Assembly (NCBI GenBank): GCA_949358305.1
Contig: OX442323.1
Span: 7,316,001-7,380,000 of the forward strand
DNA from: Strigamia acuminata
Taxonomy: Eukaryota > Arthropoda > Chilopoda > Geophilomorpha > Linotaeniidae
Direction of reading: 5' to 3'
DNA length: 64,000 bases
The translations under genes and the position numbers were made by a program. How positions within the stretch are numbered: position 1 is the stretch's first letter; every line of letters begins with the position of its first letter. This document shows, piece after piece, positions 22,638 through 53,634 of this stretch. A model generated the notes under the pieces. That model made no database searches. It was not told the DNA's origin and saw only the letters and a list, made by a program, of their open reading frames with translations.

Positions 22638-24911
22638 TCACTCGAATTCCAAGGTTTGACGATGTTGAGGATCTCGGAAATAGATTAGCATATTAAATGC
22701 CACTTCTACCACAACACGTCGCGCATCTTGGAATGAACGTGCGCCCTGCCGATTTATCTCGAAAAGACAGTGAGCCAAAAAATATTCTCCATACCTCCGG
22801 TAGAGAAGATGCAACAATGGATCAGCCTCCGAACGAAGCATATGCAAGTCCGCAATGGCTAAAGATCGGAGAAGCTGTCGCTGAGCCCGAATCGACATAT
22901 CAAATTGGAGACATCCTCGTTCTCCCTCAGCAAAGTTACAACGAATCGTGGTGGGAGGCATCAAGCTTGGAAGAAGTTCCAAAGTTATGAATGGTTGGGT
23001 TGCATCCCACTCACCTCGTCTTGTGCGTGGGGCAGGAGGCAGGAACACGTATCGATAAACAGTCGAACACCGTATTTCGCGCAATTCGGTTAAACGGGTC
23101 CGCTCTCGATTTCGTCTGAATTCCTCCTCACTAGCCTCCTCCACGGCTCGTCTATCTGCCCAATGTCGCTCGCCGAGTCGTTCTATCTCCATCTCATATC
23201 TTCGCATATATTCCAGATTTCGTCGCTCGTCGCCTCCCCTTCTATCTACGTGATGTCGGTCGGCGAGTTGTTTCCTCTCCATTTCATACCTTCTTCGGTA
23301 TTCCGGATTTTGTCGTTCGTCGCCTCCCTCACGTTGCTCACGTCGCCTTAGAACCTGGTGAAGCACTTGGGAGACCTCCTCATGCATTACCCATATTAAT
23401 AACTCCAGCGCATTTACGCGGTCGTAAAGGTCACATTGACTCAAGCGATGCTGAATCTGGTTGGACATGGTACGTATGCGTAGAAGCATTTCGTTAAATA
23501 CTTCTTGAAAATCGGCTTGTAGGATATTAAAATCACGGTCCATCATAAAATTTATCAAAGTTATCCAACCTCGACGCTCCATATAGAATCTGGATGGTGA
23601 GGAATGCACATCTTGCGCATATACATTTACCTCATATCGGTTCAATAATTCGTAAATAACTTCAAACGTATGCACCGGTTTTGTGCTAATTCCAGACCTG
23701 TCTGTGAATAAATCACAATGAGTAGCTGACGTAGTTGTTGATGTACCATCGCCCAGCTGGGGTTGCGCTGATTCTAAATGCGACCCTGTCAAGTATAGTC
23801 GATCAGAAATAGTTACTGTGCTGTTAGGGGGTATAGTTGCGCTGGTGTTTCCCGGGGGTGCATTTGGTACAACTCGAAAATGAGATATAAGGACAGGAAT
23901 TTTGGATTTTTGCGAAGTCTCACGAGGTACAATCTTTACTGTTGCTCGCCTACTCAGTTCACCTGAGACTGGTCTTCTGGTTGGGGATTGTGGCAAATTG
24001 ACTGTACGCGGATCCCTTGCTTTCTTCTCAGGTCCTTGCGCATTTATAACTTGATCAGGAGGTGTCTCGATGATTACCTCATTGATTGATCCTAATAATG
24101 GCGGAGTAGTACTCAACTCGGATCCACAGTCTCGCACTGGCGGCGTGCTGGCCCGTTCCCGCTCAATCTCCTCGTTTTCCTGTTCTATCCTTCCGTCTGA
24201 TACTGCACTGTCGCATTCACAACATAAATTCAAAGTCAAATCCGGGGATGCAGGTGTCAGGCTAGGTTGCGCTTCAAACCGCGACGAGGCGCTTGCAAAT
24301 AACGCATCATCGTCACCACTGCTCCAGCTATCATCAGATTCGACTGGCAAATCCGACAAATGCGCAACAGCCCGCGCAATAGCCTCTTGAACCTGGTGTA
24401 CATTACCATCGAGGGTTTCCTGAAGAGATGAAATAACTTCTCGTCCCATTATTGCACGCGTCGACGACTGCTCACGATGTAATGGGTCCTCAGCCGGTGA
24501 ATCAAGAAGTTGGGCGATGTTGGTACCAGGGTAAATCCATTGTCGAAGATTAATATGACTTGTCTGCGCCAATCGTCGCGCACGCTGCCAATACCAGCGG
24601 TGTACCGTCTCAAATCGCAGAATTGAAGCCGGACTTCCGTTGAGCGACCTAAACGGCGGAAATGTAACGCCGCCAATATTTATGTTGTCTTGCCTGCGTC
24701 GACGTAACACCCATCCAAAAATCTGTCTCATCCAAACCGCGAATAAATCCCTCGGCAAGTCGCCATTCCCGTTGCACGCTCGACAGGTGAGAGCGGCTCG
24801 CGGCGGGTCCTCCTCCATACCATGGCCTGAGCAGACCGGGCATATCTCGTGGCTCGGAAAACCCGTACCGAATGCTTCTACAAAAGGTTCCTCGTCCCGA
24901 TTGGAAGCCAT
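22638..24911 (-). CDS. Gypsy ORF3, DnaJ-type zinc-site protein (757 aa), copy 1
   Basis: Function unknown. I choose the ATG at 24911 because CCAACATGGC is a good initiation context shared with copy 2, while the frame upstream is not conserved. Residues 24-51 carry CPVCSGHG and CRACNGNG, the CxxCxGxG pair seen in the DnaJ zinc-finger domain (enough for one zinc ion). A conserved WMRQIFGWVLRR, LNGSPASI and RQWIYPG block follows. The middle is acidic and low complexity, then comes a highly charged coiled coil (about residues 550-640). The last 120 residues (ITLELLPSLM, RYGEYFLAHC, EINRQGARSF) are the best-conserved part compared with copy 2. No signal peptide or membrane segment is seen, so it is not an envelope protein. 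It is strongly diverged from the copy 2 ORF3 and 167 residues shorter. Confidence 0.85.
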   Translation of the reverse strand: MASNRDEEPFVEAFGTGFPSHEICPVCSGHGMEEDPPRAALTCRACNGNGDLPRDLFAVWMRQIFGWVLRRRRQDNINIGGVTFPPFRSLNGSPASILRFETVHRWYWQRARRLAQTSHINLRQWIYPGTNIAQLLDSPAEDPLHREQSSTRAIMGREVISSLQETLDGNVHQVQEAIARAVAHLSDLPVESDDSWSSGDDDALFASASSRFEAQPSLTPASPDLTLNLCCECDSAVSDGRIEQENEEIERERASTPPVRDCGSELSTTPPLLGSINEVIIETPPDQVINAQGPEKKARDPRTVNLPQSPTRRPVSGELSRRATVKIVPRETSQKSKIPVLISHFRVVPNAPPGNTSATIPPNSTVTISDRLYLTGSHLESAQPQLGDGTSTTTSATHCDLFTDRSGISTKPVHTFEVIYELLNRYEVNVYAQDVHSSPSRFYMERRGWITLINFMMDRDFNILQADFQEVFNEMLLRIRTMSNQIQHRLSQCDLYDRVNALELLIWVMHEEVSQVLHQVLRRREQREGGDERQNPEYRRRYEMERKQLADRHHVDRRGGDERRNLEYMRRYEMEIERLGERHWADRRAVEEASEEEFRRNRERTRLTELREIRCSTVYRYVFLPPAPRTRRGEWDATQPFITLELLPSLMPPTTIRCNFAEGERGCLQFDMSIRAQRQLLRSLAIADLHMLRSEADPLLHLLYRRYGEYFLAHCLFEINRQGARSFQDARRVVVEVAFNMLIYFRDPQHRQTLEFE

Positions 24912-25719
24912 GTTGGTTTCAATATTCGTTGGGAATATAATGCGCCTAAGTTGGTGGAGGTAATGCTTATATAAATACACAGAACAAATAATACGTTTGA
25001 CAAACGATACTCACAATTACGACGCGCAACAACACGAACGCGCACAGAACGAAACAAACAACGAAGACTAAAGAATATTCCCCGGAATGTAACGAGTCAT
25101 AAAACTTTGCTTCGAGAAGCTTCGATGAACGATTGAAAACTCGCACATGTAATAAAGTCGGGTTCGAGGTTAAACACTAACTAATTGCAATTGAAGGGCG
25201 ACATTCAGTGTTGGAATTCGGAAGTTAGCGAAGGTTGTCTTCGCTCAAAACTCTTGTTTTAAAGTGATTAAATAAGGATGGTGAGATAAACAAGTAATAA
25301 TTCAGAACACAGAATATTAATTTAAATAAAGTGCGCATAAATTATATTGATTGAATAATTTAAATGAATTGTGGAAATAGCCACGTGCTATTGTTTAGAG
25401 GTTAATTGGCATTGCGCACTCTGGTGCCGGACATAGTCCCTGATTGAAATGGACTTAGCCATTTTCGAGTGACCGAATATGAACATAAAATACATAACAC
25501 AAAACATTAAATATAAAATATAAAGAAAACATAAAATAACATAAAACATAAAAATTAGGATGAATAAATTTAAAATAAAGGGAAAAATAGTTTTTAAACA
25601 AAATAGGTAGTAAAGATAGATTTACACCGGATTACACTTGGTTTTTTTTTTTTTTTTTTTTGTTGTTTCGTTTGTGTTTTCCCTTTTTTTTTTTATTTAG
25701 CTTAAAAAATAGAAGAAAA
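24912..25719 (-). other. Spacer between pol and ORF3, gypsy copy 1
   Basis: Non-coding, nearly identical to the copy 2 spacer until about 25 bases before the ORF3 ATG. Just after pol it has a long A run on the sense strand (plus-strand T run at 25641-25661). TTATATAAGC lies about 55 bases before the ORF3 ATG and could be an internal promoter element. Confidence 0.6.
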
Positions 25720-28700
25720 TTACTTAAATGAAAGAAAATAGGCAGAAAAAATATCTAAAGTGTTGACAGCAAAAATTTCAACATGTTTATCAATAATTTC
25801 AACGTCTTTTAAAGTTAAAAAGTTGGCCTCGGCAAAAAACCAATGTCGCAATTCCACGACATTATAAGGCTGGGTTTTTTGGCCGTTTTCATCCATTAGG
25901 ATTACTGTATTGGGGCCCACCAATCTATGTATAATATATACACCTTCAGTCCGTTGGCGTAAACCTGCTGCGAATTGTTTATCGGCAGATGAAGGTTGCC
26001 GATTGCGCAAAGTTACCCAGTCGCCAGGACGGAAGTCATGGGGGCGCCGTTTTAAATCGAACCATTTTTTGTGTCGAATTTGGGACTCGCGCAAGTTGTT
26101 AATCGCGCTTTCTCGCATTCTACGCATATGTTCGTGCAAGTTTTCAGCTTCCACGGGCGGCAACGGTTCTCCGTCATCCGTGTCGCTATCCAGGTCGCCC
26201 GGAAATCGAGCTTCCTGGCCTGTTACCATTTTAAAGGGTGAATACTTTAAAGAAATTTGATACGCTGAATTAATCGCGAGCACGAAATAGCCAATGTTGA
26301 CGTCCCATCTAGTATGGTCATCATCAATATATGCTAATATACAGTTCTTTAATGATTGGTTAAGCCTTTCCGCAATATTACCTTGCGGGTGGTATGCGGC
26401 GGTATATCTATTTATTGCGCCAAGTTGCTGGATTTGGCTACGAAATTCTGGTGAGCGAAAAGCAGGCGCATTATCGCTGATAATTATTTTGGGAAAACCC
26501 CATCTTTTGCAGAATTTCTGAATTTGTTTCACCGTAGTGGCTATATTTGAGTTTTCGGTTAGACGTACGTCTAACCATCGGCTAGCAGAGTCGACCATCA
26601 CAAAGGCATAGCAATGTCCCTCTGTGGATCGAGGTTTCTTGCCGTAATAGTCGATGTAGATAGCGGAGAAAAGATGGCGCGATCTGGACATTATCATTTT
26701 TCCATATGGGAGCCTGTTAAGGGGTTTAGCTCTTTGACACGCTTCGCAAACCTGTATCCATGTTCGAATATCTTCGCGCATTTTTGGCCAAAATACGCGC
26801 GATTTAATGCGATGGAGTGTTCGTTCTTGCCCCATATGTCCAACTACGGGAGGATAGTGCATTGCGCGGAAATATCTTTCTCTGAGTTCAAATGGGAGAT
26901 ATATTTGGCGCCTCTTTCTAATTTCATTAATATGGACAGGAGGGAAGCGACATAACATCTCTTTATACATGCCGAAATCTTGCGCGTCAGCCACAATTTT
27001 GGCAGCCTCATCTGGATCAAGTGGTAACATTTGGGCAGTTAAATAAAATATCAACTCACGCGACCAGGGATCCTGTCTTTGCGCCGCAATGATTTCAGCA
27101 GCAGTAGGCAACAGCTCGAACGGAGGATGTTCGATTGGTGGATCGTGCTCCAATTCGGCTTGCTTCTCTGCTTCAGTCCTCGAATCTTCAATTACTGTCC
27201 TTTCCCGTCGCGGACGCAATCTCGATGGAGTTCTTCGCGCTGATGTTGGGGGCGCATAATAATTCCTCGTTGGTGGCGACATGTCACGAATGGGTCCAAA
27301 ACTGTCTTCAGATGATGTAGAGTCAGAATCCGGGTCCGAAGTATATCCCTCTGGCCTCTGCTGTCCTGATGGTCCCACCGCATCGTCATACATCACTGGT
27401 TCAGAATGTTGACGCGGAGAAATAATAGGAAAATCAGTGATAGGAATTGAAGGAGTTGGGGAAGGAGTTGGTAAATTTGGAATTTCAGGAGAAGGTTTAG
27501 TAGTAGGCCTTCGGTGGCTATCAGGTTGAATTATTGGTGCGGGGACTCCAGTGATTCGACGGAAATTTCGTCGTATTTTATCCACCAAAGTTCCAGGTGT
27601 CGGCAATTGTGATGGTGCCGAAGCAGTCTTTTTTCTAAAACTAGACGGATTTATTGGCGCAGGAATTCTGGTTGGAATAATTGCCGAAGGAGGAATGGAA
27701 CTAGGAATAGGAGTGGATATTGGAGTTGCAGGAGGGGTAGGAATAGGTAAGGGTGGTGGAATTAAAACTGATTTAGATTTGGGTTTCACCACATGGGAAG
27801 GAATAGCGGATTTACGTCGCACTGCCTTCAACTTTCCTACTTGCTGTGATTTCAATAACTTTGGAAATGTCCACTTTTTAATAGTTCCCGCATACCTGGG
27901 TGGTAGCCATGGTGGTGATTTAGGAATCAAAGATGGATCCTTTAATCTAGCCCGAGTTCGTGTGGCTATTGCTCGTTTAGCATGAGGAGATAAAATTGGT
28001 ACAATATCAATTTTACGTGGTCTTCCTCGTTTCTTTATCAGAATTGGGATTAAAGAGCGCTGTCGGCGGGTTCGTAAAGGCACTGAAACACGAACTGGTG
28101 ATAAATTAGGAGTTCTCACTTGTGAGGTTGGTTGCGCAACTGGAATTGATGCATTTGGTGTTGCAGTTGGTTGCACAATTGGCGTTAGTGCAACTGGAGG
28201 GATTGTAACCGGCGGTGCCCTCGTTGGAGGAGTAGCTACGCCAGTAGAAGATGGAATTTGCGCACCTGAAGTCGGCGCATTTCCAGTCACTTTCTCTTTA
28301 CCAGTAGGTCGAGGAATAAGAGATTTTTTCTTATTTTTCTTCTTAGTCGGTAAAGAAGCTGCAATGAGAGGCACTTTTTTAAATGTAGATTTAAACAACT
28401 TTCGAAACTGCAAATTAATGTCTTTTGGCAATTCCTTGATGATATTAAGTGCCGGCCACTCGTTGCAATCATCAAAATAGGCAAGGTAACACGCCTCGTC
28501 GACCTCCGGGCTATCATCCTCATCATCGACTTCAGGTGGGTCGACAGGAGCTCGACTTAGTGCATCCGCTACCTTATTTTTGCATCCTGAACAGTGCAAA
28601 AATGTGAATTTATAATCACTCAACGATAATACCCAACGGGCCAAACGTCCAGTTGGTTCCCTTTGCTGAAATAACCACTTAAGAGATTGATGGTCGCTCT

Positions 28701-31365
28701 CGAGGTAGAATGGCATCATCTCGAGGTATGCACGAAAGCGTTTGACACCCCAAACCGCGGCCAAACATTCGATTTCGGTTACTTTATAGTTCTTTTCAGC
28801 GCTGTTTAATGCGCGAGAGGCAAATGCGATTGGAATTCTCACACCTTCATCGTTAAGTTGCATTAAAGCAGCACCTAATCCAGAATAACTAGCATCGGTC
28901 TGCAGTATAAATGGTTTTTTCCAACTGGGAAAACGTCTTTTCAGTGTTGGTATCGCAATCTGGTCTTTCAGATATTCGAACGCTGATTGCTGCGCATCTG
29001 TCCAAATCCAAGTTGCGTCCTTTTTAAGCAATGGTCGGAAAACTTCGCTAATTTTGGAAAAATTTGCAATGAATGATTGGTAATAACCTACCATGCCTTT
29101 AAATCGTTGTAATTCGCGCAAATTGGTTGGCGCGGGATAATTTTGAATAGCAACCACTTTCTTTGGATTTGGTGTAATCTGGCCAGATTCCACTATGTGT
29201 CCCAAAACCTCGAGTCTTTTTTGACAAAGCTCAGTTTTGTTGGCGTTCATGGTGAATCCAGCGTTGAACAATTCCTCTAAAACGAGGCGCAAATGTTGCA
29301 CGTGTTCCTCGAAAGTTCGGCTAAAAATAATCACGTCATCAATATACACAAATACAAATTTGTAAAGATACTTTGCAAGAGTCTTATTCATCGCTCGTTG
29401 GAGGGTAGCGGGTCCGTTGATAGGTCCGAAAGGCATGCGCACATATTCGAATAAACCTCGATGTGTTATAAAAGCTAAATACCGTTCGTCACCTTTGCGC
29501 ACGCCGATCTGATGGAAAGCTTCGCGTCCGTCGATTATCGAAAACCAATGCGCACCTCCCAAATATGCAAAGATGTTATCAATGTCCGGAAGGGGGTAAA
29601 CATCCGGAATTGTTTGCGCATTAATGGGGCGAAAATCCATAGCAGTTCTCCATTCACCTGTCTTCTTGGGTACGACGACTGGAGCAACAGCGCAATCACT
29701 TTGGGATCGCCGAATAATACCTTGCTGCAGCTTTTTGTCGATATATTTATCAATTATCGCCTTTTTCGCAGGGTTCACCGGGCGCACAGGGACATGAATT
29801 GGACGAAAATCCGGTTTCAGGTTCACCTCGTACTCGGTGTTATTACATAAACCAATTTCTTCGCGAAAGATTTGCGAAATGGGCTGCAATGTTTTGATTA
29901 ATAGTTTTATCTGTGGCACTGTCAATTGGTTCCACAACTGGTGGTAAATCCAATCTAAATCGGTCGGATCTCCACTAGGTTGGTACTGCAAAAAATTAAT
30001 GTCATTAATGTTCATTTTAGAGTTATTCCCACCATTGTCAGGTTGCGCAATCGAAAAGATGTTGATTTTCGACTCCTTCTTGGCATTGATGTCTTTAGCA
30101 CGTTGCGCAACGAGTTGTTTGGCAATTGGACGAATAACATTGATTTTTCGTCGTAAACGTCGTAATCGTCGGAACTGACTCAAAGTTAATTTACGTAAAA
30201 TTGTCTTTTTTAAATTGGAGGAAATTTTAGAAGTTTCTTTCCTCTTTGGGGACCAAATATTCGACCATTTGCGTTGCGCACGATGTCGAACTTGTTTAAC
30301 TCGATACTGCGCATCGTCATGTGGATACTCGAATATTTCTTGTTGCAAGGGTCTATGCGCCAGGAGGAGGCAGTTAATTTCACTCACCGGATCCGGTTTC
30401 CTTAGTATTTTCGTCGGAACGATCTCACTAATGGCCGCCGGTGGGTTGGATGGATCCTGCGTTTCTTCCGGCGCAAATGGCAAAACCAGAATTGACTCTG
30501 ACTTTTTTGCTTCTTCATAAGTCATGAATTTGCGAATCTCATTTGAGCCCACCATGCTCCACTGTTGTCTCGCATGGTCGATGTCGATTCCGGCCGCTGT
30601 GCAGAAATCACGTCCAAGGAGCATATCCATTTTGGCATCGGGTAAAACCATGCAAATGAATTTTATTATGCCTATTGGGGCGCGCAAAGCGAGCTGCATC
30701 GATTTGGTGGAATCCACTATGTCACCAGACGCGACCTGCACCCGCTCGTGGAGATTCACAAAGTCCAAACCCATTTTTTCGTGTAGTTGTTGGAACACGT
30801 CCTCACTCATTACACACGTTTGTGCGCCTGAGTCTAGAAGCGCAGTACAAGCTACATTAGCCCAGGAAATCTTTACGCAAGGTGCTTTCTTGCACAAACG
30901 ATCCCCGCGCGTTATCTCAATGATGGGTTCTTGAGTTTCTTTAAGTTCCTCTGGCGTTAACATTACGAAAGATACCTTCATAGGAGAGATCACTTCCTTT
31001 GGAGCCTCAGTCGTTGTTGCACTGGAAGTAGACTTAATTATTGGTAAAGTTTTAGTAATTTTACTCACTATTGTCACTTTCGGGTTTTTCTTCGAAATTA
31101 CAGGTTGCAAATCTGTTAATTTCGGCAATTCGTCCTTTACAGCTTCAGGAACGGCAGTCTGCAGATCTGACGCCTTTGTAGCTGAGGTGATGATGGAAGA
31201 TGATGAAGAAATAACACTACTTACAGGTTTATACTCTGAAAGAGTAATAACAGTAGGAGATGTTGTTGAATTAACCTGTGAAGGATCGTCCTCTTTCAAG
31301 TTAATTAAAGGTGAAGCGCGTCGTTTGGATTTCAGACGTTTTGCGCGAAGGGCCGGTCGACTCAT
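25720..31365 (-). CDS. Gypsy Pol polyprotein (1881 aa), copy 1
   Basis: Same architecture as the copy 2 Pol described at 44403-50048: protease DSGAQ (about residue 178), RT YIDD (674-677), RNase H QTDAS (822-826), a basic proline-rich linker with an AT-hook, HHCC zinc site and DD35E integrase. Reading is open throughout. I find five residue differences from copy 2, including D/N27, L/S390, L/S1005, E/G1024 and V/A1330. The start ATG overlaps the gag stop in ATGA. Confidence 0.97.
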   Translation of the reverse strand: MSRPALRAKRLKSKRRASPLINLKEDDPSQVNSTTSPTVITLSEYKPVSSVISSSSSIITSATKASDLQTAVPEAVKDELPKLTDLQPVISKKNPKVTIVSKITKTLPIIKSTSSATTTEAPKEVISPMKVSFVMLTPEELKETQEPIIEITRGDRLCKKAPCVKISWANVACTALLDSGAQTCVMSEDVFQQLHEKMGLDFVNLHERVQVASGDIVDSTKSMQLALRAPIGIIKFICMVLPDAKMDMLLGRDFCTAAGIDIDHARQQWSMVGSNEIRKFMTYEEAKKSESILVLPFAPEETQDPSNPPAAISEIVPTKILRKPDPVSEINCLLLAHRPLQQEIFEYPHDDAQYRVKQVRHRAQRKWSNIWSPKRKETSKISSNLKKTILRKLTLSQFRRLRRLRRKINVIRPIAKQLVAQRAKDINAKKESKINIFSIAQPDNGGNNSKMNINDINFLQYQPSGDPTDLDWIYHQLWNQLTVPQIKLLIKTLQPISQIFREEIGLCNNTEYEVNLKPDFRPIHVPVRPVNPAKKAIIDKYIDKKLQQGIIRRSQSDCAVAPVVVPKKTGEWRTAMDFRPINAQTIPDVYPLPDIDNIFAYLGGAHWFSIIDGREAFHQIGVRKGDERYLAFITHRGLFEYVRMPFGPINGPATLQRAMNKTLAKYLYKFVFVYIDDVIIFSRTFEEHVQHLRLVLEELFNAGFTMNANKTELCQKRLEVLGHIVESGQITPNPKKVVAIQNYPAPTNLRELQRFKGMVGYYQSFIANFSKISEVFRPLLKKDATWIWTDAQQSAFEYLKDQIAIPTLKRRFPSWKKPFILQTDASYSGLGAALMQLNDEGVRIPIAFASRALNSAEKNYKVTEIECLAAVWGVKRFRAYLEMMPFYLESDHQSLKWLFQQREPTGRLARWVLSLSDYKFTFLHCSGCKNKVADALSRAPVDPPEVDDEDDSPEVDEACYLAYFDDCNEWPALNIIKELPKDINLQFRKLFKSTFKKVPLIAASLPTKKKNKKKSLIPRPTGKEKVTGNAPTSGAQIPSSTGVATPPTRAPPVTIPPVALTPIVQPTATPNASIPVAQPTSQVRTPNLSPVRVSVPLRTRRQRSLIPILIKKRGRPRKIDIVPILSPHAKRAIATRTRARLKDPSLIPKSPPWLPPRYAGTIKKWTFPKLLKSQQVGKLKAVRRKSAIPSHVVKPKSKSVLIPPPLPIPTPPATPISTPIPSSIPPSAIIPTRIPAPINPSSFRKKTASAPSQLPTPGTLVDKIRRNFRRITGVPAPIIQPDSHRRPTTKPSPEIPNLPTPSPTPSIPITDFPIISPRQHSEPVMYDDAVGPSGQQRPEGYTSDPDSDSTSSEDSFGPIRDMSPPTRNYYAPPTSARRTPSRLRPRRERTVIEDSRTEAEKQAELEHDPPIEHPPFELLPTAAEIIAAQRQDPWSRELIFYLTAQMLPLDPDEAAKIVADAQDFGMYKEMLCRFPPVHINEIRKRRQIYLPFELRERYFRAMHYPPVVGHMGQERTLHRIKSRVFWPKMREDIRTWIQVCEACQRAKPLNRLPYGKMIMSRSRHLFSAIYIDYYGKKPRSTEGHCYAFVMVDSASRWLDVRLTENSNIATTVKQIQKFCKRWGFPKIIISDNAPAFRSPEFRSQIQQLGAINRYTAAYHPQGNIAERLNQSLKNCILAYIDDDHTRWDVNIGYFVLAINSAYQISLKYSPFKMVTGQEARFPGDLDSDTDDGEPLPPVEAENLHEHMRRMRESAINNLRESQIRHKKWFDLKRRPHDFRPGDWVTLRNRQPSSADKQFAAGLRQRTEGVYIIHRLVGPNTVILMDENGQKTQPYNVVELRHWFFAEANFLTLKDVEIIDKHVEIFAVNTLDIFSAYFLSFK

Positions 31366-33332: not shown

Positions 33333-33412
33333 GATGAAGAAAATGTGAAATGATTAAATAAATAACTCAAAAAACTAACCTTTTCGCGCGTTTAAGCCTT
33401 ATAGGTGAGAGC

Positions 33413-33432
33413 GAATCCTGTCAGGCTCGCCA
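33413..33432 (-). promoter_or_regulatory. Primer binding site of gypsy copy 1
   Basis: Sense TGGCGAGCCTGACAGGATTC, four bases inside the 5' LTR. The TGG start is diagnostic. The sequence looks like the complement of a tRNA-Arg 3' end, but I could not confirm the tRNA. Confidence 0.7.
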
Positions 33433-33436
33433 TGTT

Positions 33437-34108
33437 TGTTACGAATCAACTTAGATGTTTAATTGATTTGATCTGAATTTACGCGCAAGGTGATGTTAGC
33501 GCAAATCAGCGGGCAAAGTTCGTAGATTTACTCTGTTTGTGCCATCGTCATATGCGGATATCGGACGGTGAATAAACCTAACTCGCTGTAACACACATTA
33601 TTTATATTCGACGGGCTCAATCTCACGTTGTGGGTCTTTACGTTTAAAAAGAATGAGTATGCGCAGTGATATTCGTATGCGGGTGGGCATAGGATGTCAC
33701 AGGCATGCGAAGGGATAAAAGGTGGGCAAAAAGAGGCGCTATTAAGTGTTAAATTAGAAGAGGCGCGTGTTAAAGCGCAAAATAAAGATTGACAAACTCA
33801 ATTCAATCTAAGAGGTGTTAACTCGTTGAAAGAGGTATGAGAAGTGTGGATTATGGATAAAAGTAGCGACCAGGTAAACATGAGTCATGTGACCAGGTCG
33901 ATTGGAGTGGGTGAGGGGGTGGAAGGTATAAAATAAGGTTAATTGTTGGAAATAATAAGATGCGCGCAATGAGGCTGCGCATATATTTAGAGATGATTCA
34001 TCAATGTTAGATGAAAAGAAAGATTGGGAAAAAATAAGAAAACTTAAGATTGGGACAGTCTAAGTTAGAAATGAATAAAAAAGAAGGGTGGGTAACCTGC
34101 CCGTGACA
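33437..34108 (-). repeat. 5' LTR of gypsy copy 1
   Basis: 672 bp, followed on the plus strand by the target duplication ACTT. It differs from the copy 2 LTRs at roughly a dozen positions, so the two copies are separate insertions. Confidence 0.95.
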
Positions 34109-42331: not shown

Positions 42332-42335
42332 AACA

Positions 42336-42355: not shown

Positions 42356-42383
42356 GCTCTCACCTATAAGGCTTAAACGCGCG

Positions 42384-42394
42384 AAAAGGTTAGT
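42384..42394 (+). promoter_or_regulatory. Possible splice donor in the gypsy leader
   Basis: AAAAGGTTAGT, between primer site and gag ATG, fits a 5' splice site (AAAAG|GTTAGT) in both copies. It could serve a spliced ORF3 mRNA. CTTTAG at 50697-50702 is a candidate acceptor upstream of ORF3. Motif-based only. Confidence 0.35.
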
Positions 42395-42435
42395 TTTTTG
42401 AGTTATTTATTTAATCATTTCACATTTTCTTCATC

Positions 42436-44406: not shown

Positions 44407-47400
44407 GTCGACCGGCCCTTCGCGCAAAACGTCTGAAATCCAAACGACGCGCTTCACCTTTAATTAACTTGAAAGAGGACAATCCTTCACAGGTTAATTC
44501 AACAACATCTCCTACTGTTATTACTCTTTCAGAGTATAAACCTGTAAGTAGTGTTATTTCTTCATCATCTTCCATCATCACATCAGCTACAAAGGCGTCA
44601 GATCTGCAGACTGCCGTTCCTGAAGCTGTAAAGGACGAATTGCCGAAATTAACAGATTTGCAACCTGTAATTTCGAAGAAAAACCCGAAAGTGACAATAG
44701 TGAGTAAAATTACTAAAACTTTACCAATAATTAAGTCTACTTCCAGTGCAACAACGACTGAGGCTCCAAAGGAAGTGATCTCTCCTATGAAGGTATCTTT
44801 CGTAATGTTAACGCCAGAGGAACTTAAGGAAACTCAAGAACCCATCATTGAGATAACGCGCGGGGATCGTTTGTGCAAGAAAGCACCTTGCGTAAAGATT
44901 TCCTGGGCTAATGTAGCTTGTACTGCGCTTCTAGACTCAGGCGCACAAACGTGTGTAATGAGTGAGGACGTGTTCCAACAACTACACGAAAAAATGGGTT
45001 TGGACTTTGTGAATCTCCACGAGCGGGTGCAGGTCGCGTCTGGTGACATAGTGGATTCCACCAAATCGATGCAGCTCGCTTTGCGCGCCCCAATAGGCAT
45101 AATAAAATTCATTTGCATGGTTTTACCCGATGCCAAAATGGATATGCTCCTTGGACGTGATTTCTGCACAGCGGCCGGAATCGACATCGACCATGCGAGA
45201 CAACAGTGGAGCATGGTGGGCTCAAATGAGATTCGCAAATTCATGACTTATGAAGAAGCAAAAAAGTCAGAGTCAATTCTGGTTTTGCCATTTGCGCCGG
45301 AAGAAACGCAGGATCCATCCAACCCACCGGCGGCCATTAGTGAGATCGTTCCGACGAAAATACTAAGGAAACCGGATCCGGTGAGTGAAATTAACTGCCT
45401 CCTCCTGGCGCATAGACCCTTGCAACAAGAAATATTCGAGTATCCACATGACGATGCGCAGTATCGAGTTAAACAAGTTCGACATCGTGCGCAACGCAAA
45501 TGGTCGAATATTTGGTCCCCAAAGAGGAAAGAAACTTCTAAAATTTCCTCCAATTTAAAAAAGACAATTTCACGTAAATTAACTTTGAGTCAGTTCCGAC
45601 GATTACGACGTTTACGACGAAAAATCAATGTTATTCGTCCAATTGCCAAACAACTCGTTGCGCAACGTGCTAAAGACATCAATGCCAAGAAGGAGTCGAA
45701 AATCAACATCTTTTCGATTGCGCAACCTGACAATGGTGGGAATAACTCTAAAATGAACATTAATGACATTAATTTTTTGCAGTACCAACCTAGTGGAGAT
45801 CCGACCGATTTAGATTGGATTTACCACCAGTTGTGGAACCAATTGACAGTGCCACAGATAAAACTATTAATCAAAACATTGCAGCCCATTTCGCAAATCT
45901 TTCGCGAAGAAATTGGTTTATGTAATAACACCGAGTACGAGGTGAACCTGAAACCGGATTTTCGTCCAATTCATGTCCCTGTGCGCCCGGTGAACCCTGC
46001 GAAAAAGGCGATAATTGATAAATATATCGACAAAAAGCTGCAGCAAGGTATTATTCGGCGATCCCAAAGTGATTGCGCTGTTGCTCCAGTCGTCGTACCC
46101 AAGAAGACAGGTGAATGGAGAACTGCTATGGATTTTCGCCCCATTAATGCGCAAACAATTCCGGACGTTTACCCCCTTCCGGACATTGATAACATCTTTG
46201 CATATTTGGGAGGTGCGCATTGGTTTTCGATAATCGACGGACGCGAAGCTTTCCATCAGATCGGCGTGCGCAAAGGTGACGAACGGTATTTAGCTTTTAT
46301 AACACATCGAGGTTTATTCGAATATGTGCGCATGCCTTTCGGACCTATCAACGGACCCGCTACCCTCCAACGAGCGATGAATAAGACTCTTGCAAAGTAT
46401 CTTTACAAATTTGTATTTGTGTATATTGATGACGTGATTATTTTTAGCCGAACTTTCGAGGAACACGTGCAACATTTGCGCCTCGTTTTAGAGGAATTGT
46501 TCAACGCTGGATTCACCATGAACGCCAACAAAACTGAGCTTTGTCAAAAAAGACTCGAGGTTTTGGGACACATAGTGGAATCTGGCCAGATTACACCAAA
46601 TCCAAAGAAAGTGGTTGCTATTCAAAATTATCCCGCGCCAACCAATTTGCGCGAATTACAACGATTTAAAGGCATGGTAGGTTATTACCAATCATTCATT
46701 GCAAATTTTTCCAAAATTAGCGAAGTTTTCCGACCATTGCTTAAAAAGGACGCAACTTGGATTTGGACAGATGCGCAGCAATCAGCGTTCGAATATCTGA
46801 AAGACCAGATTGCGATACCAACACTGAAAAGACGTTTTCCCAGTTGGAAAAAACCATTTATACTGCAGACCGATGCTAGTTATTCTGGATTAGGTGCTGC
46901 TTTAATGCAACTTAACGATGAAGGTGTGAGAATTCCAATCGCATTTGCCTCTCGCGCATTAAACAGCGCTGAAAAGAACTATAAAGTAACCGAAATCGAA
47001 TGTTTGGCCGCGGTTTGGGGTGTCAAACGCTTTCGTGCATACCTCGAGATGATGCCATTCTACCTCGAGAGCGACCATCAATCTCTTAAGTGGTTATTTC
47101 AGCAAAGGGAACCAACTGGACGTTTGGCCCGTTGGGTGCTATCGTTAAGTGATTATAAATTCACGTTTTTGCACTGTTCAGGATGCAAAAATAAGGTAGC
47201 GGATGCACTAAGTCGAGCTCCTGTCGACCCACCTGAAGTCGATGATGAGGATGATAGCCCGGAGGTCGACGAGGCGTGTTACCTTGCCTATTTTGATGAT
47301 TGCAACGAGTGGCCGGCACTTAATATCATCAAGGAATTGCCAAAAGACATTAATTTGCAGTTTCGAAAGTTGTTTAAATCTACATTTAAAAAAGTGCCTC

Positions 47401-50048
47401 TCATTGCAGCATCTTCACCGACTAAGAAGAAAAATAAGAAAAAATCTCTTATTCCTCGACCAACTGGTAAAGGGAAAGTGACTGGAAATGCGCCGACTTC
47501 GGGTGCGCAAATTCCATCTTCTACTGGCGTAGCTACTCCTCCAACGAGGGCACCGCCGGTTACAATCCCTCCAGTTGCACTAACGCCAATTGTGCAACCA
47601 ACTGCAACACCAAATGCATCAATTCCAGTTGCGCAACCAACCTCACAAGTGAGAACTCCTAATTTATCACCAGTTCGTGTTTCAGTGCCTTTACGAACCC
47701 GCCGACAGCGCTCTTTAATCCCAATTCTGATAAAGAAACGAGGAAGACCACGTAAAATTGATATTGTACCAATTTTATCTCCTCATGCTAAACGAGCAAT
47801 AGCCACACGAACTCGGGCTAGATTAAAGGATCCATCTTTGATTCCTAAATCACCACCATGGCTACCACCCAGGTATGCGGGAACTATTAAAAAGTGGACA
47901 TTTCCAAAGTTATTGAAATCACAGCAAGTAGGAAAGTTGAAGGCAGTGCGACGTAAATCCGCTATTCCTTCCCATGTGGTGAAACCCAAATCTAAATCAG
48001 TTTTAATTCCACCACCCTTACCTATTCCTACCCCTCCTGCAACTCCAATATCCACTCCTATTCCTAGTTCCATTCCTCCTTCGGCAATTATTCCAACCAG
48101 AATTCCTGCGCCAATAAATCCGTCTAGTTTTAGAAAAAAGACTGCTTCGGCACCATCACAATTGCCGACACCTGGAACTTTGGTGGATAAAATACGACGA
48201 AATTTCCGTCGAATCACTGGAGTCCCCGCACCAATAATTCAACCTGATAGCCACCGAAGGCCTACTACTAAACCTTCTCCTGAAATTCCAAATTTACCAA
48301 CTCCTTCCCCAACTCCTTCAATTCCTATCACTGATTTTCCTATTATTTCTCCGCGTCAACATTCTGAACCAGTGATGTATGACGATGCGGCGGGACCATC
48401 AGGACAGCAGAGGCCAGAGGGATATACTTCGGACCCGGATTCTGACTCTACATCATCTGAAGACAGTTTTGGACCCATTCGTGACATGTCGCCACCAACG
48501 AGGAATTATTATGCGCCCCCAACATCAGCGCGAAGAACTCCATCGAGATTGCGTCCGCGACGGGAAAGGACAGTAATTGAAGATTCGAGGACTGAAGCAG
48601 AGAAGCAAGCCGAATTGGAGCACGATCCACCAATCGAACATCCTCCGTTCGAGCTGTTGCCTACTGCTGCTGAAATCATTGCGGCGCAAAGACAGGATCC
48701 CTGGTCGCGTGAGTTGATATTTTATTTAACTGCCCAAATGTTACCACTTGATCCAGATGAGGCTGCCAAAATTGTGGCTGACGCGCAAGATTTCGGCATG
48801 TATAAAGAGATGTTATGTCGCTTCCCTCCTGTCCATATTAATGAAATTAGAAAGAGGCGCCAAATATATCTCCCATTTGAACTCAGAGAAAGATATTTCC
48901 GCGCAATGCACTATCCTCCCGTAGTTGGACATATGGGGCAAGAACGAACACTCCATCGCATTAAATCGCGCGTATTTTGGCCAAAAATGCGCGAAGATAT
49001 TCGAACATGGATACAGGTTTGCGAAGCGTGTCAAAGAGCTAAACCCCTTAACAGGCTCCCATATGGAAAAATGATAATGTCCAGATCGCGCCATCTTTTC
49101 TCCGCTATCTACATCGACTATTACGGCAAGAAACCTCGATCCACAGAGGGACATTGCTATGCCTTTGTGATGGTCGACTCTGCTAGCCGATGGTTAGACG
49201 TACGTCTAACCGAAAACTCAAATATAGCCACTACGGTGAAACAAATTCAGAAATTCTGCAAAAGATGGGGTTTTCCCAAAATAATTATCAGCGATAATGC
49301 GCCTGCTTTTCGCTCACCAGAATTTCGTAGCCAAATCCAGCAACTTGGCGCAATAAATAGATATACCGCCGCATACCACCCGCAAGGTAATATTGCGGAA
49401 AGGCTTAACCAATCATTAAAGAACTGTATATTAGCATATATTGATGATGACCATACTAGATGGGACGTCAACATTGGCTATTTCGTGCTCGCGATTAATT
49501 CAGCGTATCAAATTTCTTTAAAGTATTCACCCTTTAAAATGGTAACAGGCCAGGAAGCTCGATTTCCGGGCGACCTGGATAGCGACACGGATGACGGAGA
49601 ACCGTTGCCGCCCGTGGAAGCTGAAAACTTGCACGAACATATGCGTAGAATGCGAGAAAGCGCGATTAACAACTTGCGCGAGTCCCAAATTCGACACAAA
49701 AAATGGTTCGATTTAAAACGGCGCCCCCATGACTTCCGTCCTGGCGACTGGGTAACTTTGCGCAATCGGCAACCTTCATCTGCCGATAAACAATTCGCAG
49801 CAGGTTTACGCCAACGGACTGAAGGTGTATATATTATACATAGATTGGTGGGCCCCAATACAGTAATCCTAATGGATGAAAACGGCCAAAAAACCCAGCC
49901 TTATAATGTCGTGGAATTGCGACATTGGTTTTTTGCCGAGGCCAACTTTTTAACTTTAAAAGACGTTGAAATTATTGATAAACATGTTGAAATTTTTGCT
50001 GTCAACACTTTAGATATTTTTTCTGCCTATTTTCTTTCATTTAAGTAA
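44403..50048 (+). CDS. Gypsy Pol polyprotein (1881 aa), copy 2
   Basis: Enzymes for proviral DNA synthesis and integration. Residues 1-150 are Ser/Lys-rich. Protease: LLDSGAQTCVMS (D178) with MLLGRDF (248-254). A very basic stretch RKLTLSQFRRLRRLRRK lies at 391-407. RT: VVVPKKTGEWRTAMDFRPIN (563-582), IIDGREAFHQ (D612), YIDD (674-677). RNase H: D824, E866, D891, D934. Residues about 945-1400 form a proline-, serine- and lysine-rich linker with an AT-hook KKRGRPRKID near 1111. Integrase zinc site: H1503, H1510, C1540, C1543. Integrase catalytic core: D1572, D1631, E1666 (DD35E). The C-terminal part includes FRPGDWVTLRNRQ, the usual GPY/F-like region. RT before integrase defines Ty3/gypsy; the clade is not assigned. 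No chromodomain is recognised. Confidence 0.97.
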   Translation: MSRPALRAKRLKSKRRASPLINLKEDNPSQVNSTTSPTVITLSEYKPVSSVISSSSSIITSATKASDLQTAVPEAVKDELPKLTDLQPVISKKNPKVTIVSKITKTLPIIKSTSSATTTEAPKEVISPMKVSFVMLTPEELKETQEPIIEITRGDRLCKKAPCVKISWANVACTALLDSGAQTCVMSEDVFQQLHEKMGLDFVNLHERVQVASGDIVDSTKSMQLALRAPIGIIKFICMVLPDAKMDMLLGRDFCTAAGIDIDHARQQWSMVGSNEIRKFMTYEEAKKSESILVLPFAPEETQDPSNPPAAISEIVPTKILRKPDPVSEINCLLLAHRPLQQEIFEYPHDDAQYRVKQVRHRAQRKWSNIWSPKRKETSKISSNLKKTISRKLTLSQFRRLRRLRRKINVIRPIAKQLVAQRAKDINAKKESKINIFSIAQPDNGGNNSKMNINDINFLQYQPSGDPTDLDWIYHQLWNQLTVPQIKLLIKTLQPISQIFREEIGLCNNTEYEVNLKPDFRPIHVPVRPVNPAKKAIIDKYIDKKLQQGIIRRSQSDCAVAPVVVPKKTGEWRTAMDFRPINAQTIPDVYPLPDIDNIFAYLGGAHWFSIIDGREAFHQIGVRKGDERYLAFITHRGLFEYVRMPFGPINGPATLQRAMNKTLAKYLYKFVFVYIDDVIIFSRTFEEHVQHLRLVLEELFNAGFTMNANKTELCQKRLEVLGHIVESGQITPNPKKVVAIQNYPAPTNLRELQRFKGMVGYYQSFIANFSKISEVFRPLLKKDATWIWTDAQQSAFEYLKDQIAIPTLKRRFPSWKKPFILQTDASYSGLGAALMQLNDEGVRIPIAFASRALNSAEKNYKVTEIECLAAVWGVKRFRAYLEMMPFYLESDHQSLKWLFQQREPTGRLARWVLSLSDYKFTFLHCSGCKNKVADALSRAPVDPPEVDDEDDSPEVDEACYLAYFDDCNEWPALNIIKELPKDINLQFRKLFKSTFKKVPLIAASSPTKKKNKKKSLIPRPTGKGKVTGNAPTSGAQIPSSTGVATPPTRAPPVTIPPVALTPIVQPTATPNASIPVAQPTSQVRTPNLSPVRVSVPLRTRRQRSLIPILIKKRGRPRKIDIVPILSPHAKRAIATRTRARLKDPSLIPKSPPWLPPRYAGTIKKWTFPKLLKSQQVGKLKAVRRKSAIPSHVVKPKSKSVLIPPPLPIPTPPATPISTPIPSSIPPSAIIPTRIPAPINPSSFRKKTASAPSQLPTPGTLVDKIRRNFRRITGVPAPIIQPDSHRRPTTKPSPEIPNLPTPSPTPSIPITDFPIISPRQHSEPVMYDDAAGPSGQQRPEGYTSDPDSDSTSSEDSFGPIRDMSPPTRNYYAPPTSARRTPSRLRPRRERTVIEDSRTEAEKQAELEHDPPIEHPPFELLPTAAEIIAAQRQDPWSRELIFYLTAQMLPLDPDEAAKIVADAQDFGMYKEMLCRFPPVHINEIRKRRQIYLPFELRERYFRAMHYPPVVGHMGQERTLHRIKSRVFWPKMREDIRTWIQVCEACQRAKPLNRLPYGKMIMSRSRHLFSAIYIDYYGKKPRSTEGHCYAFVMVDSASRWLDVRLTENSNIATTVKQIQKFCKRWGFPKIIISDNAPAFRSPEFRSQIQQLGAINRYTAAYHPQGNIAERLNQSLKNCILAYIDDDHTRWDVNIGYFVLAINSAYQISLKYSPFKMVTGQEARFPGDLDSDTDDGEPLPPVEAENLHEHMRRMRESAINNLRESQIRHKKWFDLKRRPHDFRPGDWVTLRNRQPSSADKQFAAGLRQRTEGVYIIHRLVGPNTVILMDENGQKTQPYNVVELRHWFFAEANFLTLKDVEIIDKHVEIFAVNTLDIFSAYFLSFK

Positions 50049-50859
50049 TTTTCTTCTATTTTTTAAGCTAAATAAAAAAAAAAAAAGGGAAAACACAAAC
50101 GAAACAACAAAAAAAAAAAAAAAAAAAACCAAGTGTAATCCGGTGTAAATCTATCTTTACTACCTATTTTGTTTAAAAACTATTTTTCCCTTTATTTTAA
50201 ATTTATTCATCCTAATTTTTATGTTTTATGTTATTTTATGTTTTCTTTATATTTTATATTTAATGTTTTGTGTTATGTATTTTATGTTCATATTCGGTCA
50301 CTCGAAAATGGCTAAGTCCATTTCAATCAGGGACTATGTCCGTCACCAGAGTGCGCAATGCCAATTAACCTCTAAACAATAGCACGTGGCTATTTCCACA
50401 ATTCATTTAAATTATTCAATCAATATAATTTATGCGCACTTTATTTAAATTAATATTCTGTGTTCTGAATTATTACTTGTTTATCTCACCATCCTTATTT
50501 AATCACTTTAAAACAAGAGTTTTGAGCGAAGACAACCTTCGCTAACTTCCGAATTCCAACACTGAATGTCGCCCTTCAATTGCAATTAGTTAGTGTTTAA
50601 CCTCGAACCCGACTTTATTACATGTGCGAGTTTTCAATCGTTCATCGAGGCTTCTCGAAGCAAAGTTTTATGACTCGTTACATTCCGGGGAATATTCTTT
50701 AGTCTTCGTTGTTTGTTTCGTTCTGTGCGCGTTCGTGTTGTTGCGCTTGATAATTGTGAGTATCGTTTGTCAAACGTATTATTCGTTCTGTGTATTTATA
50801 TAAGCATTACCTCCACCAACTTAGGCGCATTATATTATTCAATACATATCGAAACCAAC
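50049..50859 (+). other. Spacer between pol and ORF3, gypsy copy 2
   Basis: 811 nt without a convincing ORF. AAATAAA is followed by A runs at 50071-50128 just after pol, possibly an alternative polyadenylation site. TTATATAAGC at about 50797-50806 lies some 55 nt upstream of the ORF3 ATG. The sequence is nearly the same as copy 1 up to GCGCATTATATT (50826-50837), after which the copies diverge. Confidence 0.6.
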
Positions 50860-53634
50860 ATGGCGTGTTGTAATGAAGACTTCCCGGGAAGAAAATATCC
50901 GAAGAACTATCGAACACCGCCTTTACATGCGGCGGGTCCACCGAAGGTTCCACACCACCATCCCGATGATCCGCTCGATGCTGGGTTCCCTAATTACGAG
51001 ATATGTCCGGTATGTTCGGGATACGGAAAGGAAATCGATCCGCCGCGGCCCGAGTGCAAATGCCGGGCGTGTGACGGTCGGGGGGACTTACGGCGCAATT
51101 TACATATCGTTTGGATGCGCCAAATTTACGGTTGGGTGTTGCGAAGATACGAACAAGACCATGTGATTATAGTGAGTGTAACATATCCACCATTCCGCCC
51201 ACTGAACGGTAGTCCGGTGTCAATACAGAGGTTCCGGACGATCCACTTCTGGTATTGGCACCGGGCGCAACGAGTTGCGCACACAAATCGTATTACACCA
51301 CGACAATGGATTTATCCGATGGCGGAAGTGGTACAACTTTTATATATTCAAGTGCCAAATTTGCTCCAGGACGAGGTGGAAGGTTTGGCCCCCATGTTGA
51401 GGGAACAACATCTCGTCGATCAGATGCAATCCGCGACAATTCGCTATTTCCACCCATTTCCAGGGGATGCCTCGATGATGAACGAGCAGGTGGAACTGGT
51501 TGCGGAAACACAGGGCGCCATGGACACCATAGATACGAATGATCAGTCGGTATTGCCCTATTTTACAGGAAATCGTCCTCCATGTTCAATTAACCGACGA
51601 GAGGATCGTACGGAGAAGCTTGCACAGAAAGTATTGGGTAAGATCGAGGACACGAAAATGCCTTTGCGACGTGACGAGACCAAGGACACCAATACGACCC
51701 GATATCGTCCACAGCCATCCGAGGAGACCCTTGCGCAAGCAACAGCGCAGCTGGCCGGTTTATCAATCGATAATAACGGGGATGATGAGGACGACGATGA
51801 TTCCATGTTTACGAGTGTCTCTACCCATCTTGATGTAATTTCAGCTACTAAAGACGAGAACTCAGATCCGCCCTGTGATTTGCGCTATTATTCCGGCCGT
51901 TCTACGTTGGGAAATGTGACTGAGCAAGAAATGGCAAATTTGACGCGGGCACATAATGAAGCAATCGCCCAGTGTCGCGCCAGCACTCCTCCAGTTCGGG
52001 ACAACGAATCAAGTTTCAGTGTAACCCCGTCCATCTGTGGGGTGGCCCATGAGATTTTTGCAGAGACACCGGCTGCGCAGGTCCAAGATGTCCGAAAGTT
52101 GGAGCGAAAGATGGCCGATCCACGGATGTCCAATGTTCCGCCCATGCAGCAATCCCGCGGACCACCGCTCAGTGCACGACTTCCTCCAGCGATGCGGGAA
52201 CGATTTGCGCAATCGCCACAGAACGCGAATTTATCCGCGACATCTTTAAAACCAACTTCTAATAATAATAATCTCAATTCTAACACAGGTGCCCGACCGA
52301 AGCTTTTGGCAAAGAAAAATATTCTCGTGACAACTGCGAGTACTACTTCTACCACGGTAACGGCGGCAAGGGCAACAGAGGCCCCCTCGTGCTCAACGAC
52401 GAAGATTTCGAACATTCCAGTGTCGACGCCTGGACCCATCACCTATGCGCAGTTACCATCGCGCAATGTTTCCACGACTACAAAGGCCGCTTCCACGCCA
52501 AGTACGGTTTCGGTCTCTTCTAGTCAGACTTCGACGCCGCCCCATCGAGTGGCTCCTACCGAAGCCAGCGCGACTGTTGCCTCCGATGGGGCACAGGCTC
52601 TTGGAGATATTGCCTCTCATTGCGATCTGGCAGTTGACCGATACAGCGTAACAACGAAACCGGTAAACTCTCTGGAACTAATTCCCGATTTATTAGATGA
52701 GTTCGAGGTCGAGATTTGTGTAAAGGGGCCAGAGGTGTCTAAGACCCGATTTCATATGGAACGTAAAGGGTGGATTACGCTTTTGGAACATATGATGGAC
52801 AAGGATTTTGAGATACTTCGTGTGGATTTCCGTAACATTCATGGTCAGATGAAGACTCGCATTCGCGATATGGCTGCTCAAGTATTGAGGCGGATGTCGG
52901 AATGCGATATCTACGATCATGATGGCGTTTTGGAGCAGTTAATTTGGATCATGCATGAGGAGATCTCGCGCATGATCTATCACATTCGGCGCCGTCGTGA
53001 CTACGAGCAAATGACCACCGAGCAACGTCAACGGGAGTACGAGCAGAAACATGCGGCGGAAAAAGCACGCGTTGCCGAGATCCATCGTGTTGAGGAGGAA
53101 AAGAAAGCGATCCAGGAGGCTAAGGAAGCGGAGGAAAAGCGATGCGCTGAGGAGACTCGTTTGAACGAATTGCGAGAGATGCTTCAAACTTCAGCCCGCC
53201 ATCACGAGTTTGCGCCATCCATTCCACCAGGTCCGGGTTTCTCGGGTTGGGACGATGCCCCACCCACAATTACCTTGGAACTTTTGCCTAGCTTGATGTC
53301 TCCAGCGGCTATTATCTGCAATTTCGCTAACGGTCGAGGTGAGTGCCTTCAATTTGGAATGTCGACACAAGCGCAACGACAACTTTTTCGTTCCCTCGCC
53401 GTTGCTGATTTGCGCATGTCTTTGGCCGAGGCAAATTTGTTATTAAATTTATTGTATCGACGATATGGAGAGTTATTTCTCGACCATTGTCGGAACGAGA
53501 TTAACCGACGAGGTGCAGTTAACTTTCACGATGCGCAGCGCATAGTGGTGGAAATTGCGCTTAATATGATTAAATATTTCCGAATTCCTCGTCATCGCGA
53601 AATCTTGGAAAAGGATTTCGAACAACAATCCTAA
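50860..53634 (+). CDS. Gypsy ORF3, DnaJ-type zinc-site protein (924 aa), copy 2
   Basis: Function unknown. The ATG at 50860 (CCAACATGGC) is shared with copy 1; an in-frame ATG at 50713 would add 49 residues but the frame is not kept in copy 1. Residues 49-76 hold CPVCSGYG and CRACDGRG, a CxxCxGxG pair as in the DnaJ cysteine-rich domain. WMRQIYGWVLRR, LNGSPVSIQRF and RQWIYP follow. A long Ser/Thr-rich, low-complexity middle (about 220-640) differs greatly from copy 1. FHMERKGWITLLEHMMDKDF is shared with copy 1. A Glu/Lys/Arg coiled coil covers about 755-820. The C-terminal 120 residues (ITLELLPSLMSPAAI, LYRRYGELFLDHC) are well conserved. It lacks signal peptide and transmembrane segments. It could act with DNA, RNA or chaperones; that is speculation. 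Confidence 0.85.
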   Translation: MACCNEDFPGRKYPKNYRTPPLHAAGPPKVPHHHPDDPLDAGFPNYEICPVCSGYGKEIDPPRPECKCRACDGRGDLRRNLHIVWMRQIYGWVLRRYEQDHVIIVSVTYPPFRPLNGSPVSIQRFRTIHFWYWHRAQRVAHTNRITPRQWIYPMAEVVQLLYIQVPNLLQDEVEGLAPMLREQHLVDQMQSATIRYFHPFPGDASMMNEQVELVAETQGAMDTIDTNDQSVLPYFTGNRPPCSINRREDRTEKLAQKVLGKIEDTKMPLRRDETKDTNTTRYRPQPSEETLAQATAQLAGLSIDNNGDDEDDDDSMFTSVSTHLDVISATKDENSDPPCDLRYYSGRSTLGNVTEQEMANLTRAHNEAIAQCRASTPPVRDNESSFSVTPSICGVAHEIFAETPAAQVQDVRKLERKMADPRMSNVPPMQQSRGPPLSARLPPAMRERFAQSPQNANLSATSLKPTSNNNNLNSNTGARPKLLAKKNILVTTASTTSTTVTAARATEAPSCSTTKISNIPVSTPGPITYAQLPSRNVSTTTKAASTPSTVSVSSSQTSTPPHRVAPTEASATVASDGAQALGDIASHCDLAVDRYSVTTKPVNSLELIPDLLDEFEVEICVKGPEVSKTRFHMERKGWITLLEHMMDKDFEILRVDFRNIHGQMKTRIRDMAAQVLRRMSECDIYDHDGVLEQLIWIMHEEISRMIYHIRRRRDYEQMTTEQRQREYEQKHAAEKARVAEIHRVEEEKKAIQEAKEAEEKRCAEETRLNELREMLQTSARHHEFAPSIPPGPGFSGWDDAPPTITLELLPSLMSPAAIICNFANGRGECLQFGMSTQAQRQLFRSLAVADLRMSLAEANLLLNLLYRRYGELFLDHCRNEINRRGAVNFHDAQRIVVEIALNMIKYFRIPRHREILEKDFEQQS

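Follow-up and report, generated by a model that had tools for sequence, protein, structure and literature searches.

Two divergent alleles of a third open reading frame on one Ty3/gypsy backbone of Strigamia acuminata: a probable exchangeable cassette

Two Ty3/gypsy elements that differ in one gene

The stretch of Strigamia acuminata DNA analyzed here (hereafter the window: 64,000 nucleotides, contig C11, positions 7316001-7380000, in a genome of 237.5 Mb in 157 contigs) carries two complete Ty3/gypsy retrotransposons in opposite orientation, E1 and E2, which are nearly identical outside ORF3, the third open reading frame (ORF) of each element. An earlier note on the window had proposed that ORF3 was either swapped between lineages or driven apart by strong diversifying selection, an interpretation that stood in part: swapping by recombination is supported, on a wider scale than a single swap, and diversifying selection is not. 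ORF3 is probably an exchangeable cassette: two old alleles of it, termed A and B, alternate on a single Ty3/gypsy backbone that recombines.

In both elements, a long terminal repeat (LTR) is followed by gag, pol, a spacer of 0.8 kb, ORF3, an AT-rich noncoding stretch of 1.9 kb and a second LTR. The pol product of E1 matches Pfam families in the order protease, reverse transcriptase (RT), RNase H and integrase, which is the Ty3/gypsy order, and the elements have the two LTRs and the short target duplication expected of this group. The RT region of E1 and E2 is only distantly related to its matches in the protein collection (33-46% identity among the 120 of 364 listed). The parts of the two elements are as follows.

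20074-34108, minus: E1, complete Ty3/gypsy element with ORF3 type A
33437-34108, minus: 5' LTR of E1
31362-33332, minus: gag of E1, 656 amino acids
25720-31365, minus: pol of E1, 1881 amino acids (protease, RT, RNase H, long linker, integrase)
24912-25719, minus: pol-ORF3 spacer of E1, common with type B until about 25 nucleotides before the ATG
22638-24911, minus: ORF3 type A, 757 amino acids, with an N-terminal four-cysteine site (CxxCxGxG twice), a low-confidence middle, long helices and a C-terminal helical region
20746-22637, minus: 3' noncoding region of E1, 99.6% identical to that of E2
20074-20745, minus: 3' LTR of E1
41661-56181, plus: E2, complete Ty3/gypsy element with ORF3 type B
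41661-42331, plus: 5' LTR of E2
42436-44406, plus: gag of E2, 8 residues unlike E1
44403-50048, plus: pol of E2, 1881 amino acids, 5 residues unlike E1
50049-50859, plus: pol-ORF3 spacer of E2
50860-53634, plus: ORF3 type B, 924 amino acids, with the domain order of type A plus an N-terminal extension and extra blocks common to type C
53635-55510, plus: 3' noncoding region of E2
55511-56181, plus: 3' LTR of E2

A recount returned the figures of the earlier note for Gag (8 of 656 residues differ) and Pol (5 of 1881), as well as its ORF3 lengths of 757 and 924 amino acids. Compared piece by piece, the DNA of the two elements is 98-99.7% identical outside ORF3 (LTR and leader 98.5%, gag 98.5%, pol 99.7%, pol-ORF3 spacer 98.5%, 3' noncoding region 99.6%, 3' LTR 98.2%) and 55.5% identical inside it, where 695 of the 2872 aligned columns are gaps; the two ORF3 proteins share 45% identity. 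The edges of the divergent segment coincide with the ends of the ORF. Indeed, the two markers between which similarity had been reported to drop, about 25 bases before the ORF3 ATG, and to resume, at the ORF3 end, were each found once per element: GCGCATTATATT at 50825 (plus) and 24934 (minus), and AACAATCCTAAACGTGAC at 53624 (plus) and 22618 (minus).

The LTRs of E1 are identical at 674 of 674 positions and those of E2 at 672 of 673 (the compared slices ran 2 bases past the LTR). Target duplications of 4 bp, read by eye at the element edges, were present at all five elements checked, namely E1 (ACTT), E2 (ATAT), type A copies at C10 (GATA) and C8 (AATT) and a type B copy at C4 (ATAT); the ATAT duplications of E2 and C4 are weaker evidence because they are sited in AT-rich DNA. 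Near-identical LTRs and target duplications together indicate that the mosaic elements arrived by insertion.

Both ORF3 types recur on one backbone across the genome

Each ORF3 type is present many times over, on several chromosomes. Long copies number at least 14 for type A (96-100% protein identity) and at least 23 for type B (94-100%), both counts being lower bounds (58 and 47 candidates were scored), and the comparison of backbone flanks took in all 23 of these B copies and 11 of the 14 type A ones. When the listed RT places of the backbone lineage shared by types A and B (the AB lineage, n = 38) were assigned the nearest ORF3 within 8 kb downstream, 16 were followed by type A, 17 by type B and five had no ORF3 nearby; two of the five were inspected, one having lost ORF3 by deletion and one ending in type A. 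At the AB-backbone place L068 (C1:26618400-26619600), the 3' end of the element was matched where ORF3 was expected, ORF3 itself being deleted.

An LTR search, in which 40 matches were scored, recovered 34 LTRs that form 17 pairs bracketing elements of known ORF3 type, nine A and eight B. All 34 are 100% identical (rounded) to the E1 LTR over 527 bases, with the full score in 11 pairs (seven A, four B). Since A and B elements share indistinguishable LTR stretches, such elements carry either ORF3 allele. The paired LTRs are spaced 13.29-13.37 kb apart in 9 of 9 type A elements and 13.81-13.86 kb apart in 6 of 8 type B elements; of the two outlying B pairs, one spans 20.0 kb and one spans 12.5 kb and encloses a truncated ORF3.

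ORF3 and its flanks have different histories

The 3' noncoding flank was analyzed in 31 copies (8 A, 23 B). Its tree explains the A/B label with 7 changes, compared with a mean of 7.4 for shuffled labels, and rejects a single A clade (approximately unbiased (AU) test, p 1.5e-44). The tree of the upstream flank (38 copies, including one row each of the C and D lineages described below) needs 8 label changes, rejects the A clade as well (AU p 7.8e-108) and places the old A copies L056 and L058 among old B copies. All four gametes with the A/B label were found at 70 of 125 informative sites upstream and 44 of 169 downstream, and in a test modeled on the pairwise homoplasy index, compatibility was higher among nearby than among distant sites (in each flank, 0 of 300 permutations gave so low a value). 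Individual copies tell the same story: relative to E2, L010 is 99.1% identical in ORF3 and 96.3% and 91.8% identical in the flanks, and L012 is 94.7% identical in ORF3 and 99.6% and 97.0% identical in the flanks. The final stretch before the ATG can also be nearly alike across types, as in L058 (A) and L030 (B). One backbone carries either allele, and flanking haplotypes are common to both types almost to the ORF3 ends. The swapping of ORF3 between lineages by recombination, as the earlier note had suggested, is thus strongly supported, the histories of the flanks and of RT being in conflict with that of ORF3.

The ORF3 alleles are old and constrained

Synonymous divergence (dS) in RT was estimated over 380 codons in eight copies with an AB backbone (E1, E2, four further B and two old A). 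It ranges from 0.02 to 0.095 regardless of ORF3 type, with means of 0.071 between types (15 pairs) and 0.077 within types (13 pairs). In the same copies, the mean within-type dS of ORF3 is 0.294 (0.361 in the first 70% and 0.153 in the last 30%), roughly four times the RT value, and the pol-ORF3 spacer differs by 0.050 on average. Within-type silent divergence of ORF3 therefore exceeds that of RT and of the spacer, in 12 of 13 pairs for RT, and the alleles are older than their surroundings, as expected of a balanced polymorphism. Types A and A' differ by a dS of 0.27-0.34 and B copies by up to 0.39, vs. a maximum of 0.095 in RT; between A and B, the silent sites of ORF3 are saturated.

The ratio of nonsynonymous to synonymous divergence (dN/dS) within types is far below 1, about 0.08 for B (pooled over the 104 of 105 pairs with dS > 0.02) and 0.12-0.21 for A (10 pairs), and each ORF3 allele is under purifying selection. 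Because within-type dN/dS is low and A/B silent sites are saturated, the difference between the two ORF3 types is old rather than fast-evolving. The alleles are constrained, the cassette itself recombines, and the suggestion that ORF3 is under strong diversifying selection is not supported.

Two further backbone lineages

Two related backbones, C and D, place the alleles in a longer history. The C backbone (RT 94.5% identical to E1 at the protein level) has at least 29 long ORF3 copies of a single type. The D backbone (RT 95% identical) is represented by two copies with identical RT and one ORF3 type, which is interrupted in the copy read. RT silent sites of both lineages are saturated or nearly so relative to AB. 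The ORF3 tree splits A and D from B and C, with a support of 100/100 for the A+D branch, and an A+B clade is rejected (p 0.033; N-terminal region p 0.011; central region p 0.0008). Moreover, B and C share an N-terminal extension and internal blocks absent from A and D. Both ORF3 classes were seen only in the AB lineage, C and D each contributing one ORF3 row to the trees. The simplest history is that the ORF3 classes predate the split of the backbones and that the AB lineage retained both.

The ORF3 protein and its upstream signals

The four-cysteine site is invariant in the five aligned ORF3 sequences (A, A', B, C, and D), and the long helix is predicted to form what is probably a coiled coil. 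A stretch upstream of ORF3 contains three motifs that are kept in eight rows from A, B, C, and D and may act in splicing or as a promoter: TATATAA, TAGG and GTGAGT, which resembles a splice donor and reads GTAAGT in C. Further GTGAGT copies are present near the start of gag (33271 and 33134 in E1, 42497 and 42634 in E2). These features map as follows.

24774-24842, minus: four-cysteine site of ORF3 A (C24, C27, C43, C46)
51004-51072, plus: four-cysteine site of ORF3 B
52918-53193, plus: long helix of ORF3 B, probable coiled coil, in blocks with a predicted local distance difference test score mostly of 84-94, lower at the helix end
24945-25018, minus: E1 stretch upstream of ORF3 with GTGAGT or GTAAGT, TATATAA and TAGG, kept in eight aligned A, B, C, and D rows
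50752-50825, plus: E2 counterpart of that upstream stretch, with the same motifs

Two candidate identities were rejected. Hydropathy revealed no membrane segment in ORF3 (highest 19-residue Kyte-Doolittle mean 0.94 in A, 1.42 in B, and 1.04 in C) and no envelope family of Pfam matched at E 0.1, which speaks against an endogenous retrovirus with env. A DnaJ zinc-finger protein was dismissed on scores of 15.8 and 14.5 bits, vs. a cut-off of 32.7; DnaJ zinc-finger proteins have four CxxCxGxG motifs, of which ORF3 has only two.

Two further observations concern ORF3 itself. B copies differ at silent sites by a mean of 0.37-0.63 in codons 1-225 and of 0.08-0.17 in the last 300 codons (676-975). Inside ORF3 A, a 90-bp period is repeated about 1.8 times at 23163-23328; in this region L056 and L058, both old A copies, are shorter by 30 residues.

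How the alleles may be exchanged and kept

Template switching is an established property of LTR elements. In the mechanism envisaged for the exchangeable cassette, A and B RNAs would be co-packaged and the reverse transcriptase would switch template in their near-identical flanks; as A and B are too different inside ORF3, crossovers would occur only in the flanks, so that ORF3 would move whole and its edges would stay sharp. Both alleles may persist because being rare is advantageous at the level of the ORF3 protein, whether through type-specific self-limitation or through evasion of a host factor. RNA-homology silencing would target the 11-12 kb shared by both types, and a rare-type advantage would therefore have to act through the protein. 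In the weakest part of the proposal, the ORF3 product would be regulatory rather than an envelope, would be translated from a spliced mRNA or from one of its own, might handle or export genomic RNA as CERV of the Cer1 element does, and might multimerize via its long helix. More speculatively, ORF3 may be a retrotransposon recognition locus akin to idiomorphs or self-incompatibility genes: the classes, older than the backbone split, would be held near equality (16 A to 17 B) by rare-type advantage, the ORF3 protein would tell its own type from the other, and the rest of the element would recombine freely.

Several observations weigh against the cassette of two old alleles. One of the 13 within-type pairs (E2 and L010) has RT deeper than ORF3, an exception that resembles a recent transfer of ORF3. 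Measured among 15 B copies in windows of 200 columns, raw diversity is not highest in ORF3 (0.02-0.08, with 0.01-0.07 upstream and 0.04-0.12 in the 3' noncoding region), and the depth of ORF3 is read from silent sites, on the assumption of like mutation rates and codon constraint. In the upstream flank, the A label is clustered beyond chance (4 of 500 shuffles as low). Of the RT places of the C lineage (n = 37), 30 have type C downstream within 8 kb and 36 within 16 kb, and none has A or B. C and D enter the ORF3 trees as single long-branch rows, for which the tool warned of long branches meeting, and fold and sequence searches with ORF3 found no relative. Finally, among older copies, conversion between elements already inserted might produce much the same picture, and A may have come in by a single import from a D-like lineage followed by drift.

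Alternative explanations

This single ancient import is the strongest rival, and a possible though distinctly less probable history. The AB backbone would at first have had only the class-2 ORF3 (B) and would have gained the class-1 ORF3 (A) once from a D-like lineage, drift and recombination doing the rest without balancing selection. The grouping of ORF3 A with D, the frequency of recombination, and the presence of type C alone in the C lineage and of one type in the two D copies all fit such an import. However, divergence within A (A/A') and within B reaches several times the RT maximum (see above); both types are deep relative to RT and so seem older than the coalescence of the remaining element, and drift would need luck or structure to keep both so deep.

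Gene conversion between chromosomal copies, rather than template switching, might have homogenized the flanks of two old families. Flank and ORF3 identities do vary independently between copies, and E1 and E2 lie 7.5 kb apart, but the five elements checked all look like clean young insertions and both forms are spread over many chromosomes, so that the mosaic state most likely predates insertion and this explanation is unlikely. Fast divergence of ORF3 in place under positive (diversifying) selection, suggested by a protein identity of just 45% amid near-identical flanks, is, except perhaps at particular sites between types, very improbable given within-type dN/dS far below 1 and saturated A/B silent sites beside near-identical flanking ones. 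Repeats are easily misjoined, yet an assembly artefact joining two element families is scarcely credible, because LTR pairs are near-identical, 4-bp duplications occur at the five checked loci, LTR spacing is consistent in 9 of 9 A and 6 of 8 B elements, and both structures recur on several chromosomes, at nine A and eight B loci with LTRs matching those of E1.

Other features of the window

Outside E1 and E2, the window holds a complete-looking copia-type element at 8896-13941, with identical 208-base stretches at its ends (8896-9103 and 13734-13941) and a single open frame of 1413 amino acids (9137-13378, minus) that matches gag and pol families of copia elements. Short units of about 20-31 bases, or multiples of that length, are tandemly repeated at 476-1196, 2221-3298, 5415-5865, 56758-57029, 57139-57442, and 59822-60106. 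Between E1 and E2, an open frame of 258 amino acids (37689-38465) has no Pfam match, the opposite strand being open across nearly the same stretch.

Known systems and implications

The envelope gene of errantivirus-type elements is a third ORF after pol, as is ORF3 here, which differs from it in having no membrane segment. The closest precedent is found in Saccharomyces, where Ty1 mosaics have LTRs and pol nearly identical to those of Ty1' and a divergent gag, with breakpoints located almost exactly at the gag ORF, and where p22, a gag-derived product, restricts Ty1 (PMC7055915). As in E1 and E2, a divergent gene with breakpoints at its ORF ends sits on a common backbone; according to the same account, the divergent version in Ty1 came from the lineage of another species, and the gene product limits like elements (PMC7055915). 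Unlike Ty1, a yeast element in which gag itself is exchanged, the present case concerns a Ty3/gypsy element of an animal and an accessory ORF after pol with 45% protein identity, both versions have more silent depth than the backbone, and self-limitation would be an analogy. The earlier statement that no described Ty3/gypsy group behaves in this way was too strong in view of the published Ty1 gag mosaics, albeit in another gene and superfamily (PMC7055915).

Bdelloid rotifers are reported to have ORF3 modules common to LTR and Penelope-like retroelements, LTR-element ORF3s being typically separate units expressed from spliced messages (PMC5408684). These are likewise animal LTR elements with modular non-envelope third ORFs common to several lineages, but their GDSL, DEDDy, and env-like ORF3 types mark separate families (PMC5408684), whereas in S. 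acuminata homologous alleles alternate in one family. CERV of the Caenorhabditis elegans element Cer1 occupies the env position, has a possible C4 zinc finger and a potential leucine zipper, is made from a spliced mRNA, is needed for the export of genomic RNA and has no obvious homology beyond nematodes (PMC10309623). ORF3 resembles it in general features common to many proteins (a possible C4 site, a predicted self-association helix and no envelope features), and CERV differs in its length of 517 amino acids and in its first exons, which are in the gag frame (PMC10309623); the likeness serves as a working analogy rather than as membership. A two-allele system for CERV was not found in the text available from that account (PMC10309623). 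Old homologous alleles of a non-envelope ORF3 alternating in one recently active animal family are a combination not found in the literature searched.

Transposable elements are usually treated as clonal lineages and classified by their RT. Here, a multicopy family with young members acts as a recombining population, with one locus that has two old alleles, and two ORF3 versions are kept side by side, somewhat like mating-type variants in populations. RT-based classification can thus hide the most divergent gene of an element. The family also makes it testable whether selection between element copies within a genome can keep a balanced polymorphism, the ORF3 protein being the indicated target.
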